Shown here: piece after piece, positions 3,549 through 34,517 of the stretch
How the letters are laid out: every line of letters begins with the position of its first letter
Numbering within the stretch: the first letter of the stretch is position 1
Source: a virus
IMG/VR virus record: IMGVR_UViG_3300037485_000922
Coordinates: 1 to 34,517 of that record
DNA: 34,517 nucleotides
Strand: one strand, 5' to 3'
The notes under the pieces: generated by a model
What the model saw: the letters and a program-made list of their open reading frames with translations, nothing else
The model's database searches: none
What the model was told of the DNA's origin: nothing
Translations under genes and position numbers: made by a program

Positions 3549-4301
3549 TTAGATAGTATTCATAGATTGGCCTTTCGACCAAGAATTTAGCTCGGTAAGC
3601 ATCTCCACCTGCGATTCTAAGGACTTCAGCAAATCGCTGTCTGTGCTGTCTGATAATTGAAGTCCAATAATGTGCTTCAGGTTGTTTAGGCTTTGGAGAG
3701 TTTCTGCTTGCAAATAGGTCGGAAAATTCATGCTGTATTCTGTCAAAGAGGGCAGATAAGCGTACTCCGGCAGATTCAAAAAAAAACCTTCTACATCATT
3801 TGACTTCATCCAATGCTCAAGCTTCTGCTTGTTGTATGGGTACTGGTAATCAAGTGGATTTTCAACCTCATCAAAGTAAACAACTGTCGCAAGCTTCAAC
3901 TGCCTGAGCAGGCTCACAGACATTTCCATCTGCTCCTTGAGCCTTGAGGCCATCACACCTATCTCATAAAGCTTCTTATCATCCTTCTTCTTCTTGTCCA
4001 TCAGAAGATTGATTAGGCCGTTGTTCCAGCCTCTTAGATAGTCAGGATTAATCTGCCATAATTCCTCGGTGAATATATCCCTTGCAGCTACTGCCCTTTG
4101 AAATGGCACATTGACCTCAGATACGAATTTAAAGTATTTGATACCTCCACTTGTGAAGGCATACTCAATTTGATCCCATCTGTCCTTTGGTGCTACTCCC
4201 CTGTAAAGTATTCTGCTACTTTCTGCCCGAATAGCATCTTCTTTTGCCACTTGTTGAGCAGGAGGAGGAACAGATGATTTACTCCTAAAAAAATTGAACA
4301 T
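3549..4301 (-). CDS. Probable tail-assembly protein upstream of the tape measure
   Basis: 250 residues, mostly helical, soluble, with a Lys/Asp-rich patch near residue 100. I do not recognise the family. Its place directly before the tape measure is where siphophages keep the two tail-assembly chaperones, often linked by a -1 frameshift. The first codons (M F N F F R) contain a run of seven T residues, and the upstream membrane-type ORF overlaps it by 109 bp in the +1 frame; the overlap contains a T TTT TTA heptamer in the upstream frame. It could be a stand-alone protein, the downstream half of a frameshift product, or both. Confidence 0.75.
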   Translation of the reverse strand: MFNFFRSKSSVPPPAQQVAKEDAIRAESSRILYRGVAPKDRWDQIEYAFTSGGIKYFKFVSEVNVPFQRAVAARDIFTEELWQINPDYLRGWNNGLINLLMDKKKKDDKKLYEIGVMASRLKEQMEMSVSLLRQLKLATVVYFDEVENPLDYQYPYNKQKLEHWMKSNDVEGFFLNLPEYAYLPSLTEYSMNFPTYLQAETLQSLNNLKHIIGLQLSDSTDSDLLKSLESQVEMLTELNSWSKGQSMNTI

Positions 4302-6967: not shown

Positions 6968-7213
6968 TTACTGCAAAGGTAAGTGTTTTAGAATTGACTC
7001 ATAGAGGTCAAGTTGATTCTGCCATCTTGATTGGTAACCAGGTGCAGGATTTGCATCAAGTTTGGCTCTTAGTTGCTTGCACTTGCGATTGAGTAAGAAT
7101 CTGATGTCTTGGACTGTCATCTCTTGTTTGGGTTGGAAGTAAAACAAATCATTCTCATAGGTTGCAATGCCTTCCCACATAGAAGGCACTTGGCTGATGT
7201 TGATGTTATTCAT
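6968..7213 (-). CDS. Hypothetical protein in the replication operon
   Basis: 81 residues, soluble and helical, with no motif I recognise. It overlaps the end of the DnaB gene by 8 bp and is the last gene before the terminase block. The overlap makes co-translation with the helicase likely; a helicase accessory role is only a guess. Confidence 0.7.
   Translation of the reverse strand: MNNINISQVPSMWEGIATYENDLFYFQPKQEMTVQDIRFLLNRKCKQLRAKLDANPAPGYQSRWQNQLDLYESILKHLPLQ
6974..6981 (-). promoter_or_regulatory. Promoter -7 box before the small basic protein and terminase genes
   Basis: The minus strand reads TTACCTTTGC, matching the TTAnnTTTGC consensus found at other starts in this genome. It lies 19 bases upstream of the ATG at 6954 and inside the end of the 81-residue gene. 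No TTTG is seen at the -33 distance. It may give the terminase genes a transcript separate from the replication genes. Confidence 0.4.
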
Positions 7214-8534
7214 AGTTCCTGAGTCGCATTAATGCCCCATCAAAACGCAAAGGTATTACTCCTGTTGAACCTGAACGCATCTTGACCTGATCAATCAGGC
7301 AGAGGTCTTGGTTTGAAAGTTCAAGATTGCCAACTTTCGTGCTGGCTGATGGGTCAAAGTAAAAAGCTGGCCTCATCATCATCCAAATAACATCGGCATC
7401 CTGCTCCACTGAACCGGACTCTCTAAGGTCAGACATCAAAGGCATTTTATCAGGTCTTTCATCAACTCGCCTTGATAGTTGGCTAAGTGCCACAACCGGA
7501 ATCTGAAGTTCTTTGGCAAGAAGCTTAAGACCTCTTGAAATTTCACCGACAATGTTCACTCTGTTTGTTTCTTTAGGATTGACAGATTCAATCAAGCCAA
7601 TGTAATCAACAAAGATGACCTTGATGTTATACTTGTTTTTCCACATGGTTGCTTTAGTCCGGATTTTGCGGATGTTCATATTACCCTCATCGCAAATCTT
7701 GATGTTCCAATCCTTCATCCGGCTTACAGATTGCCTTAGAGCATCCTTGTCAAGTGTGTTCATATCTCCCTGCTTGATTTTAAAAGCATACACCTGAGAC
7801 TCTTGGCTTGCAAGCCTTTGGCAGAGTTCATGCTTGCTCATCTCAAGTGAGAATAGGCCACAGCCAATGCCTTGCTTGACAAGGTTACGCATTAGGCTTA
7901 CCACAAGTGCAGTCTTTCCTTGCCCTGGTCTTGCACCAACAACAGTCAATTCTGAATCTGTAAGTCCTCCACAAAGCTTGTCAAGTGATGAGATGCCTGT
8001 TGAATAGCCTGCAATTGTTCCGGCAGCTTTATTGAACCACATCTCGGCTGATATGTCAAGCTGGGTTTGAAAGTTATCATCTGACTTGTTCACTGTTGAA
8101 GTTAGGAGGCCATCAGTCTTGCCTTGCATCTCTGTGATAAGTTCAAAAATATCACCTGAGTCAGAATTGGCTTTGGTTAGCATCTCGGTTGCTATGTAAA
8201 GAAACTTTTGCCTCATGTATTGCTCAACAAGCATCCGGCAATGGATTTCAATATGCCCAGGATTCTTTAGGCTTGTAAAGACTGATGTGATATATTTCAG
8301 GCCTCCAGCTTCCTTGAGTAATCCTGATCGTTTCAAGGTCATGGCAATAGTCTCAAGGTTTACAGGCTCACCGGCATCTTGCTGGGCTTGGATAGCTTTA
8401 GCAATTATCTTGTTTGCCTCAAGCTGAAAAACCTCAACACTTGGAATGATTGAGAAAGCAGTGAGCCTCTCTTCATCATACATCATCATGGCAGAAAGGA
8501 CTTGCCTCTCTAATTCTTCGTTTGTAAAATTCAT
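7206..8534 (-). CDS. dnaB: Replicative DNA helicase, DnaB family
   Basis: 442 residues, full length for DnaB. It is the hexameric helicase that unwinds the phage replication fork. The N-terminal helical domain spans about 1-150; the RecA-like domain has Walker A GARPGQGKT near residue 200, Walker B VIFVDYIGL near 310, and the SQLSRRVDERPDK and DLRESGSVEQDAD motifs typical of the family. It follows the replication initiator with a 4-bp overlap, so loader and helicase are made together. No phage polymerase is present; it presumably recruits the host replisome. Confidence 0.96.
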   Translation of the reverse strand: MNFTNEELERQVLSAMMMYDEERLTAFSIIPSVEVFQLEANKIIAKAIQAQQDAGEPVNLETIAMTLKRSGLLKEAGGLKYITSVFTSLKNPGHIEIHCRMLVEQYMRQKFLYIATEMLTKANSDSGDIFELITEMQGKTDGLLTSTVNKSDDNFQTQLDISAEMWFNKAAGTIAGYSTGISSLDKLCGGLTDSELTVVGARPGQGKTALVVSLMRNLVKQGIGCGLFSLEMSKHELCQRLASQESQVYAFKIKQGDMNTLDKDALRQSVSRMKDWNIKICDEGNMNIRKIRTKATMWKNKYNIKVIFVDYIGLIESVNPKETNRVNIVGEISRGLKLLAKELQIPVVALSQLSRRVDERPDKMPLMSDLRESGSVEQDADVIWMMMRPAFYFDPSASTKVGNLELSNQDLCLIDQVKMRSGSTGVIPLRFDGALMRLRNYE

Positions 8535-9214
8535 AGGTTTGTTTGGTAAGATTCGTGAACTCTGATTGGCCTACTTTCGGCCGGAATAAATGTGGAAGCC
8601 TCTTTTTTGTTTTTACCGAACCAGTTTGTTTTTATAGTTCGTTTCCAGTCCTTGACTTTTTTGCCATCTCTGTTTGTCCAATTAGCATCGGAGTAATAGT
8701 AAAAGCATTTATCAAGTAAATCAAGAGATTCTTTATGCTCAATAAAAAAGGCTTTTACTTCTTCAAAAGTTGGAGCAATAAATTCACTTTTTGCTTTCTT
8801 AATGTTTAATGGTTTAATTGTTTCTTGGTTTAATTGTTTAACTATGGGTACAGTGTCGGCATCAGTGCTGTTACATTGCTGTATTATCGCCGAATCCAAT
8901 GCCGTATATAGTGCCATGGCATTTTCGCTATGGCACAACCTAATAATTCTACTGCTATTTTGATTTTTACTTTCTTGAATTACCTCAATAAATTGCCATT
9001 TGACTAAGTCTTTTAAGGCATCAAGAAAAGTATTTTTATTGCCTATAGAAAGTCCTTCCATAGTTGCAATGGTTGGCAATCCAAACTCTTGCTTCCATCC
9101 TAATCTATTATTTAACTCTACGCACCAGCAGTAAAGAGCTGTATGATGAGACTTGGCTTCTTTATTATCAAAAGCAAAATCAAACCATTTCCTAGTTAAT
9201 TGATAGCCATTCAT
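8531..9214 (-). CDS. Replication initiator / helicase loader-like protein
   Basis: 227 residues. The N-terminal half (1-105) looks like a winged-helix DNA-binding domain; a variable linker follows; the C-terminal block (about 145-205) with PTFEEVKAFF, CFYYYSDANW and DWKRTIKTNW is typical of phage replication proteins that pair with DnaB. It likely binds the origin and loads the helicase, by analogy with DnaD/replisome-organiser proteins; the exact family is not certain. It overlaps both the helicase and the upstream HNH gene by 4 bp. Confidence 0.75.
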   Translation of the reverse strand: MNGYQLTRKWFDFAFDNKEAKSHHTALYCWCVELNNRLGWKQEFGLPTIATMEGLSIGNKNTFLDALKDLVKWQFIEVIQESKNQNSSRIIRLCHSENAMALYTALDSAIIQQCNSTDADTVPIVKQLNQETIKPLNIKKAKSEFIAPTFEEVKAFFIEHKESLDLLDKCFYYYSDANWTNRDGKKVKDWKRTIKTNWFGKNKKEASTFIPAESRPIRVHESYQTNL

Positions 9215-9552
9215 TTTACATTTAATTTATAGGTATAATAATCCTGATTGGTTTTAACTCTGTGGCACTTTCTGCATAAAAATTGAAGATTTGATTCTTC
9301 ATTTTTTCCACCAGCTGCAATAGGTATTATATGATCTACCTCTATTTTATCTTGGCTACCACAATTTTTACAAACTGTTTCAGATGATAAATATTTTTTC
9401 CTAAAATCTCTTGTAAAATGACTTGCTGATTGTCTTAACTGAATCTTAGCATATCTAATACAATTATAGTCAATCCCATAACCGATTTTTTTTAACTCAT
9501 TAAAGAAGTCTTCAAATGTCCATGAGTAATAATCTCTAAAAGAACTTTTCAT
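9211..9552 (-). CDS. HNH endonuclease
   Basis: 113 residues. The HNH fold is clear: C61-x-x-C64, D73-H74, N88, C93-x-x-C96-H97, giving the zinc site plus the catalytic His. The N-terminal 50 residues are basic and may bind DNA. Free-standing HNH enzymes in phages are often homing endonucleases; some also help packaging, but this one sits by replication genes. It is AT-richer than its neighbours, a sign of separate origin. Its ATG overlaps the T-run that follows a strong hairpin, so the structured leader at 9557-9690 probably controls it. Confidence 0.88.
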   Translation of the reverse strand: MKSSFRDYYSWTFEDFFNELKKIGYGIDYNCIRYAKIQLRQSASHFTRDFRKKYLSSETVCKNCGSQDKIEVDHIIPIAAGGKNEESNLQFLCRKCHRVKTNQDYYTYKLNVK

Positions 9553-9556
9553 AAAA

Positions 9557-9690
9557 AGAAAAACCTCATCCAGTTTTCCCTGCTACGACCAGCCAAGGAA
9601 TAGGCTGACAGGTACTTACCGGATGAGGCTTTAATGTTTTTCATTTTCCTTTATTTAAACCGAGGTCGTAATTCGGTGGCCTAAGCCGAT
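9557..9690 (-). ncRNA. Structured RNA element in the HNH gene leader, ending in a terminator-like hairpin
   Basis: On the minus strand an 8-bp outer stem, CCTCATCC...GGATGAGG reading as GGATGAGG-side at 9571-9564 and its partner at 9628-9621, encloses CCTG/CAGG (9612-9609 with 9582-9579) and CAGCC/GGCTG (9607-9603 with 9594-9590) with loop TATTCCTT. The outer stem is followed by TTTTTCTTTTT, which runs into the HNH start codon. A bulge sequence, GGTCGTA (9590-9584), is the exact complement of TACGACC upstream (9670-9664), allowing a long-range pairing or pseudoknot. A near-perfect promoter precedes it. It could be an attenuator, a regulatory leader or a small RNA; I know no named family that fits. 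Confidence 0.6.
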
Positions 9691-9691
9691 G

Positions 9692-9724
9692 CAAATATAA
9701 TTACTTTTTCAAATGGTCATCAAA
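9692..9724 (-). promoter_or_regulatory. Promoter for the structured RNA / HNH gene
   Basis: Minus strand: TTTG (9724-9721), 21 bases, TATATTTG (9699-9692), then C. Both boxes match the Bacteroidota consensus TTTG-N19-21-TAnnTTTG. The start point would fall near 9688, so the transcript includes the whole structured element. The -33 box lies within the last codons of the 101-residue gene. Confidence 0.75.
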
Positions 9725-32940: not shown

Positions 32941-34517
32941 TTAACCTATCTCATAACCATCATCAAAGCCTGTATCAAATGCTGCGCCTGTTGGAGCAAG
33001 TTGATTAGCCTGAAGAAGTGTGAACTTTGTCGTACCTCCGGAAGCATCCTCCGGCTGATTGGTGGCCTCCATTATGAAGCCTTGAATGTCCAAACTGCCT
33101 GAAGTGAGCCTGACTTTCCGGTATTGCTCATCTTGAGACAAAGTTAAGAAATCGCAGAGACTTTGTGGATAGCTAAATTCAACTCCAATAGGCTTGAATA
33201 AATACTCAGCAGCTTCAGGCACAATGATGTCTGCATAGATGTCTGAGTTTTCCGCAATGGTTACCTCAGAAGGTATCTGAATGCATGGCTCGACAGAGTC
33301 AGATATTGCGCTGGCATAGGCTGTCTGATACTCCCCAACCTGAAACTGAAGCCTTGGATTGATCAGGCCATAGGTATGCATGCCAAGAACCTTCCACCAT
33401 CTGCAAGCAATTCGTGCAGGAGTGTGGAAAATGTTGTAGAGGTTGCCTGCTGGACTGCTTGAGTAAGTAATTAGATTGCTTGACATACTTGCTTGACCAG
33501 GAGGAAAGGCTTTGAAGCCTGACTCTTCCCTAACTCCATAGGCAGTATTTTCAACATTCTCAAATTCTAACTCATATCTGTTAAGCCAAATTATAAATGT
33601 CTCCCAGTCGTTAGGCCTATCAGAACTTCCTGAGTCATCTCTGAGGAACTGAAGCCTCCTGCTAAACTCAATGGCATAACCTTCAGCAATTATTGAACTC
33701 TTAATGTCAAGCTTTGCACTTGATCCCTCATTCATTGCTCGATTATTGACAAAGTAATTCCTATCAGTGTGAATTGCCCATTGGCCTGAGACTGCAATAT
33801 TCTTCCACTTGTCATCATAGCCAAGCTGGATATTATTTGCAAGCATATCAACCTTAGCCATAGTCCTGACCTCTCCCACATTTGGGAAGGTTTGGCTGAT
33901 GCTGTTTTGGTAGAAGAACTCTCTTGGTTCAATCCTGATAATCCAATCTGTGCCTGTCCATTCGTATGCCCATCCGAGGCAGAAGATTCTATCAAGGCCT
34001 TCAAATATCTTCTTGAATGAATTTTTGTAACCTGTATTCTCCTCATCAATAAGACAGCCATTAACAATCTCATTGTTAGTCTTGGCATTCCTAATTTTAA
34101 GGCCATTGGTCAAGGCACTATTCCAATAGCAGCCATTTCCTGTTTCATCAAACACATCAGACCTTATCTGATTATTCTGCCCAGTGATTACATAAACAAG
34201 CCTATTTAGGCACTCACCTATGGTCATGCACTCAGTAGTTGATGCATATTCCCCTGGGTTCTGCTCATTCATAGTGAGGCAGACACTATCAATAGTCATG
34301 CTTAATGACCTTGTAAAGTTATCGGCAATAGGCAATGAAGGTCTAACTGAACCACCTTCACCCCAATAAGCCAACACAGCAACCCTATATCCCGGCAGAA
34401 CTGTTATGCCTGATACTACTGTTGTAAAGTCAAATGCTACTTCAGGATCAACCGGAATATTTGCAGTTGCAAGAGCAGTATTGTAAAGAGTATAAAAAGT
34501 ATCAAAGCTTCCTGTTG
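32941..34517 (-). CDS. Distal tail structural protein, C-terminal part (gene crosses the circle join)
   Basis: Open from the window end at 34517 to a TAA at 32941. Bases 34391-34517 duplicate 1-127, so this is the C-terminal 482 residues of the 790-residue protein that starts at 923. The part contains mixed helix and beta with Trp-rich blocks (GWAYEWTGTDWIIR, DDKWKNIAVSGQWAIH) and ends FDDGYEIG. No hydrolase motif was seen, so host-wall degradation is not supported. Distal tail or baseplate hub is the likely role, from place. Confidence 0.75.
   Translation of the reverse strand, partial: TGSFDTFYTLYNTALATANIPVDPEVAFDFTTVVSGITVLPGYRVAVLAYWGEGGSVRPSLPIADNFTRSLSMTIDSVCLTMNEQNPGEYASTTECMTIGECLNRLVYVITGQNNQIRSDVFDETGNGCYWNSALTNGLKIRNAKTNNEIVNGCLIDEENTGYKNSFKKIFEGLDRIFCLGWAYEWTGTDWIIRIEPREFFYQNSISQTFPNVGEVRTMAKVDMLANNIQLGYDDKWKNIAVSGQWAIHTDRNYFVNNRAMNEGSSAKLDIKSSIIAEGYAIEFSRRLQFLRDDSGSSDRPNDWETFIIWLNRYELEFENVENTAYGVREESGFKAFPPGQASMSSNLITYSSSPAGNLYNIFHTPARIACRWWKVLGMHTYGLINPRLQFQVGEYQTAYASAISDSVEPCIQIPSEVTIAENSDIYADIIVPEAAEYLFKPIGVEFSYPQSLCDFLTLSQDEQYRKVRLTSGSLDIQGFIMEATNQPEDASGGTTKFTLLQANQLAPTGAAFDTGFDDGYEIG
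34391..34517. repeat. 127-bp terminal direct repeat, right copy
   Basis: Exact copy of bases 1-127. Joining 34390 to base 1 gives a 34,390-bp circle. The copy should be trimmed before coordinates are used, because the tail gene crossing it is otherwise counted twice. Confidence 0.95.

Follow-up and report, generated by a model that had tools for sequence, protein, structure and literature searches.

Several described systems resemble the element reported here. Ribosome-mediated attenuators of the trp and erm type combine a promoter, a short leader open reading frame (ORF) and a terminator-like hairpin with a U-tract in front of an operon. In HK022, the structured put RNA occupies the 5' end of an operon of the phage; it is not known to have a terminator-like stem and U-tract of its own. 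The HEARO/omega RNA of IscB is a structured RNA beside an HNH gene, and the ToxI locus of type III toxin-antitoxin systems is made up of a promoter, a pseudoknotted RNA, a terminator, and a gene.

We analyzed a stretch of 34,517 bp, an IMG/VR virus record (the window), in which the element lies on the minus strand. It occurs in related phages as three types (A, B, and C), and the window copy is type A. Like the ribosome-mediated attenuators, it has a leader frame that runs through the hairpin (in types A and C), but its peptide and codons are unconserved, no antiterminator is evident, one or two pseudoknots covary, and type B is without a consistent ORF. Compared by description, it differs from put RNA in its own terminator-like stem and, in type A, in its two pseudoknots. 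Unlike HEARO/omega RNA, it has no Rfam match and persists without the HNH gene, whose 113-aa product in the window has no other domain match; no IscB-type RuvC-HNH protein was found downstream, as this protein matches HNH families only. Unlike ToxI, it is a single unit without tandem repeats and is followed by varying genes (replication initiators, methylase, endonuclease), and no ToxN-type toxin was identified among the scanned representatives of the 17 first-gene clusters.

At the gathering score, Rfam 15 gave no match in the window or in eight relatives, HEARO and the known riboswitches included, and permissive Rfam scans returned chance-level matches only; a known riboswitch or other Rfam family was rejected on these grounds. 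Phage and plasmid collections gave no match at the blastn level, two scans of genome contigs with patterns that need exact matches found no bacterial chromosomal home, and no description was found in the literature searched. Within the limits of these collections and this literature, the RNA is apparently previously uncatalogued.

Promoter and fold of the window RNA

Because the window ends in an exact 127-nt terminal repeat (1-127 and 34391-34517), it is probably a complete phage genome, circular or circularly permuted. The features of the locus, in order of transcription, are as follows.

9692..9724, minus strand: Bacteroidetes-type promoter, with TTTG at 9724-9721, a spacer of 21 nt, and the -7 box TATATTTG at 9699-9692
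9678..9687, minus strand: P1 hairpin, GGC-UUAG-GCC, whose first base is the predicted transcript start
9660..9676, minus strand: P2 hairpin, CCGA-AUUACGACC-UCGG, whose loop gives the 5' strand of pseudoknot 1 (PK1)
9664..9670, minus strand: PK1 5' strand UACGACC, in the P2 loop
9646..9651, minus strand: 5' strand of pseudoknot 2 (PK2), AAGGAA, directly 5' of the leader ATG
9549..9644, minus strand: leader ORF of 31 codons, MKNIKASSGKYLSAYSLAGRSRENWMRFFFL, running through P3, with its TGA overlapping the HNH ATG
9560..9632, minus strand: P3, with basal stem 9632-9619/9573-9560, internal loop, P3b, and P3c
9616-9613 and 9578-9576, minus strand: P3 internal loop, AGUA/GAA (from folding and covariation)
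9612-9608/9583-9579, minus strand: P3b (from folding and covariation)
9606-9603/9594-9591, minus strand: P3c (from folding and covariation)
9595..9600, minus strand: PK2 3' strand UUCCUU, in the apical loop of P3c
9584..9590, minus strand: PK1 3' strand GGUCGUA, in a bulge of P3
9553..9563, minus strand: U-tract TTTTTCTTTTT, 3' of P3, terminator-like, touching the HNH ATG at 9552
9211..9552, minus strand: HNH endonuclease gene, 113 aa (Pfam HNH, 1.3e-14; HNH families only)
8531-9214, minus strand: gene for a 227-aa replication protein, downstream of the HNH gene
7206-8534, minus strand: DnaB helicase gene, which completes the downstream replication block 7206..9214

In the Flavobacterium promoter consensus, TTTG/TANNTTTG, position -5 is taken by the final G of the -7 box (PMC6847099), and on this basis the transcript is predicted to start at G9687, the first base of P1. 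The -7 box also stands 5' of the RNAs of the relatives (in one descriptor list, the box was itself required), and TTTG at the 21-nt spacing was found in only 15 of the 69 members tested. The host apparently belongs to the Bacteroidetes, a placement for which the promoter type is the one pointer.

A sequence-only reading of this stretch had described a structured RNA-like element with its own promoter, and all of the parts that it described were found on the minus strand. The minimum free energy of 9690-9557 is -46.4 kcal/mol, compared with a mean of -30.5 for shuffled sequences (z = -4.4), and none of 200 shuffles was equally stable. As that reading had stated, GGTCGTA (9590-9584) and TACGACC (9670-9664), which lies 74 bases upstream, are exactly complementary, and the U-tract (9563-9553) adjoins the HNH start codon at 9552. 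The outer stem, which had been given as 8 bp, is 12 to 14 bp long (AAAGCCTCATCCGG at 9632-9619 with CTGGATGAGGTTTT at 9573-9560), and the element is larger than first described, P1 (9687-9678), the 31-codon ORF (9644-9549), and the AAGGAA/TTCCTT complementarity having been absent from the earlier account. Since PK1, PK2, and P1 to P3 can form simultaneously, the switch between pseudoknot and stems that had been suggested is not required.

The 3' end has the G+C-rich stem and following U-tract of an intrinsic terminator, with a loop region far larger than usual; a simple scan for terminators with loops of 3 to 8 nt only did not report it. At least four T's follow the stem in all 26 aligned type A members, and the U-tract is present in all 20 type B members, most of which had been selected with a pattern requiring TTTT.

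Covariation and RNA types in related phages

A TerL search recovered 80 related contigs, in which the element was located by tblastn with the 31-aa P3 frame and by blastn with the leader. Many of these relatives carry it at the same site, with homologues of the small upstream ORFs on one side and the replication genes on the other, and the RNA is present in every one of the 34 contigs spanning the site (type A in 26, type B in 8). The order of promoter, RNA, U-tract, next gene, and replication genes is constant in these 34 and in more distant phages. Comparison among them shows a conserved structured RNA composed of P1, P2, P3, and PK1, with PK2 in addition in type A, and the U-tract.

In an alignment of 26 type A sequences (A1), 94 cells of the whole structure are changed on both sides, compared with 29 +/- 4 after shuffling, and the covariation score is 0.285, compared with 0.104 +/- 0.008; the signal is lost when one strand is slid by 1 to 3 columns. 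P2, PK1, P3b, and P3c are 100% paired, and in P2, where every cell is paired, three of the four pairs have changes on both sides. The check for compensatory stem changes in relatives, which had been put forward with the sequence-only reading, thus came out in favor of the structure, with P2, P3b, and P3c covarying. The low score of P1 in A1 reflects a misalignment by one column between window-like and other rows. A 3-bp P1 was seen in each member of the descriptor list (the descriptor itself demanded P1), and the relatives have GCC, GGC, or GUC stems with a GAAA loop. G-U pairs are retained in P3 (A1 columns 75/142 and 82/135), which fits the minus, transcribed strand acting as RNA. A DNA hairpin, such as an origin or single-strand initiation site, was also considered; the conserved and variable G-U pairs of P3 favor a minus-strand RNA over it.

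PK1 also withstood the compensatory-change test among related phages. Its evidence is drawn from A1, from the type B alignment (A3), and from the matches of a covariance model, R1, that was built without PK1, and the descriptor list that demanded PK1 was excluded. Among the loci searched with R1, PK1 is Watson-Crick paired at 7 of 7 positions in all 45 distinct type A full matches, with seven different sequences (GAGACC, GCGAAC, TACGACC, and GACACC types and others). Only the bulge strand, not its partner, codes in the 31-codon frame, so that their joint change cannot stem from the peptide.

PK2 is formed in type A by the last 5 to 6 nt of the P3c loop and the linker 1 to 3 nt 5' of the leader ATG. 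Its strands change together (AAGGAA/UUCCUU in the window, AAGAG/CUCUU in L008, AACAG/CUGUU in L036, and CAGGU/ACCUG in L092), and at least five Watson-Crick pairs are found in 27 of 34 distinct linker/loop combinations (mean of 4.7 and maximum of 12 in 2,000 shuffles). The AAAGGA before the leader ATG is Shine-Dalgarno-like, yet it changes along with its partner, and this covariation identifies it as a pairing strand.

Type B is shorter and follows the same plan of P1, P2, PK1, and P3, with a single pseudoknot, the PK1 strand being in the P3b loop (GTAGGAG/CTCCTAC, GTAGAGG/CCTCTAC, GTAGCGG/CCGCTAC, and GTAGCAG/CTGCTAC). In A3 (20 sequences), 99.8% of cells are paired and 10 pairs are changed on both sides. 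The type A and type B models match each other's members weakly, and the AGUA/GAA internal loop is common to both types. Type C, with PK1 UUGGAAC/GUUCCAA, occurs in the larger phages L144, L146, L149, and L183, where it comes after a type B copy; these phages have two leaders, each before a successive and different gene set, and the 35-kb genomes have one copy. The pattern of promoter plus P1 alone retrieved further variants with other PK1 sequences (L168, L169, L171, and L182).

Some single loci depart from these plans. Local pairing between the invariant AGUAG of P3 and the CUAC strand used by PK1 is conceivable in type B RNAs, L164:3910-4015 among them, and type B, unlike type A, might thus switch between two pairings. 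A type B-like RNA at L175:7446-7600 keeps the PK1 complementarity (GGTAGGAG/CTCCTACC) and is without the AGUA/GAA loop. In L004 (1325-1625), a phage with a distant homologue of the replication gene, a further promoter and leader, in which CUCCUGAC is complementary to GUCAGGAG, has its terminator-like stem and U-tract in a different layout, possibly a type D.

The near-invariant unpaired motifs (the AGUA/GAA internal loop and AUU in the P2 loop), set in a compact pseudoknotted fold that is followed by a terminator-like stem, would suit an element that, like a riboswitch, senses a metabolite or ion. However, no metabolic gene lies downstream, the RNA is found in phages only, and Rfam gave no match, and we regard such sensing as distinctly improbable.

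Downstream genes and the leader frame

The window RNA heads a long minus-strand operon of replication, terminase, and tail genes. The earlier account had tied it to the HNH gene as its leader. The RNA with its promoter is supported (34 of 34 spanning contigs) and the link to HNH is not, since a homologue of the window HNH gene follows the RNA in one relative only, L040 (58% identity). L168 has a different HNH-like gene in this place, and in the nearest relative (L111/L189) a replication gene comes directly after the RNA, sharing its C-terminal part with the window 227-aa protein (89% over 63 aa). The first downstream genes of distinct members fall into 17 clusters, with 25 members in a replication-initiator-type cluster and the rest including small unknown proteins, a DNA methylase, and the HNH gene. 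Because the RNA is kept in the relatives while the first downstream gene varies, the element, by gene order, belongs to the replication operon rather than to HNH, and the HNH gene, which separates the RNA from the replication genes in the window, is on the same comparison a variable passenger.

A guide or cofactor RNA of the HNH protein, resembling HEARO/omega RNA, would account for the RNA abutting an HNH gene in the window and in L040 and for the HNH-like gene of L168. Such a role is very hard to reconcile with the many relatives, nearly all, in which no homologue lies beside the RNA, and with a 113-aa protein with an HNH match only and an RNA with no HEARO match, and we consider it extremely unlikely. 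A HEARO-like HNH-associated RNA was accordingly rejected as a class, since the RNA is retained where the HNH gene is missing and has no Rfam match.

The slot after the RNA holds an HNH-like gene with RDNFTCLLC in L168 (~1568-1850), a GIY-YIG-like protein with VYMIGPSIYLG and no Pfam match in L171 (~3720-4050), and a DNA methylase in L021 (4310 onward), and it may be where homing endonucleases and other mobile genes enter. Elsewhere, L011, L021, L065, L066, and L074 have 0.7 to 1.4 kb extra between the homologues of orf85 and orf126, which are adjacent in the window.

The frame of the leader ATG is open in 50 of 51 type A and C members (46 of 46 in a three-frame comparison, with 0 and 2 for the other frames) and mostly ends in the ATGA of the next gene or shortly past it. 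No conserved leader codons or peptide were detected in types A and C: codon position 3 does not exceed positions 1 and 2 in variability, and the synonymous share is not above that of the other frames. The idea that selection acts on a conserved leader peptide was rejected for want of a codon-position signal, though the frame stays open. By these measures, the frame is maintained open in types A and C and the peptide is not under selection. An ATG leader frame is found in only 4 of 18 type B members, and L171 has ATA in place of the leader ATG; because of both, translation cannot be a general trigger.

Regulatory readings of the leader

We give an even chance to a cis-acting attenuator that would control read-through into the replication operon. 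This reading is favored because of the constant position, the covarying structure, the stem with U-tract, and the open frame of types A and C, and the paired leaders of the larger phages, each heading one of two successive gene sets, are what cis-acting elements would be expected to show. Against it count the size of P3, larger than a typical intrinsic terminator, and the compatibility of all type A helices, with no mutually exclusive antiterminator to be seen among them. RNA polymerase would start at P1, and the first parts to form would be P2 and the linker preceding the leader ATG. As P3 emerged, the P2 loop would capture its bulge to give PK1, the linker would capture its apical loop to give PK2, and the finished fold would close P3 at the U-tract, stop transcription, and limit expression of the replication operon. 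The polymerase might be let through by a ribosome on the leader ORF (types A and C) or by a factor, from phage or host, that binds the fold. As PK2 lies 1 to 3 nt before the leader ATG (A/C), folding would also block leader translation; conversely, leader translation would dismantle PK2 and P3 and bring ribosomes to the overlapping start codon of the next gene.

A stand-alone small RNA would give the same sequence anatomy as an attenuator. The sequence-only reading had named both, and of its proposals it is the action together with the HNH protein that is not supported. An autonomous trans-acting small non-coding RNA of ~125 to 135 nt would extend from P1 to the U-tract, with the downstream genes expressed on read-through, and its target could be, for example, a host RNA, a host or phage protein, or a defense system for which it acts as counter-defense decoy. 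The promoter, compact double-pseudoknot fold, and terminator-like end outline a discrete RNA, the downstream gene varies, and there is one copy per 35-kb genome. However, the RNA always immediately precedes the replication operon and does not change its place in the genome, the two copies of the larger phages each precede different operon genes, and in types A and C a leader frame is open to the next ATG, so that we hold this role to be rather unlikely.

By analogy with HK022 put, the RNA could instead modify RNA polymerase for processive antitermination of the long replication and packaging operon. It does lie at the extreme 5' end of the long minus-strand operon transcript, and its structure is conserved while its sequence is not, but a terminator-like stem and U-tract of its own would be out of place in such an element, and we think this improbable.

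Beyond the attenuator reading, we see somewhat less than an even chance that types A, B, and C are interchangeable forms of a new class of phage regulatory RNA that times transcription of the replication operon in Bacteroidetes phages by a mechanism unmatched by any known leader RNA, with polymerase modification, sensing of a phage or host factor, and ribosome-gated unfolding as candidates.

Gene control in Bacteroidetes phages is poorly known. Recognition of the HNH gene as a passenger corrects a tempting reading of the locus as an RNA-guided nuclease, and what stands at the head of the replication operon is a compact, strongly supported RNA family with a covariation-defined fold, many natural variants, and predicted regulated termination. 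It would lend itself to definition as a new Rfam family and may offer a handle on replication timing in such phages.
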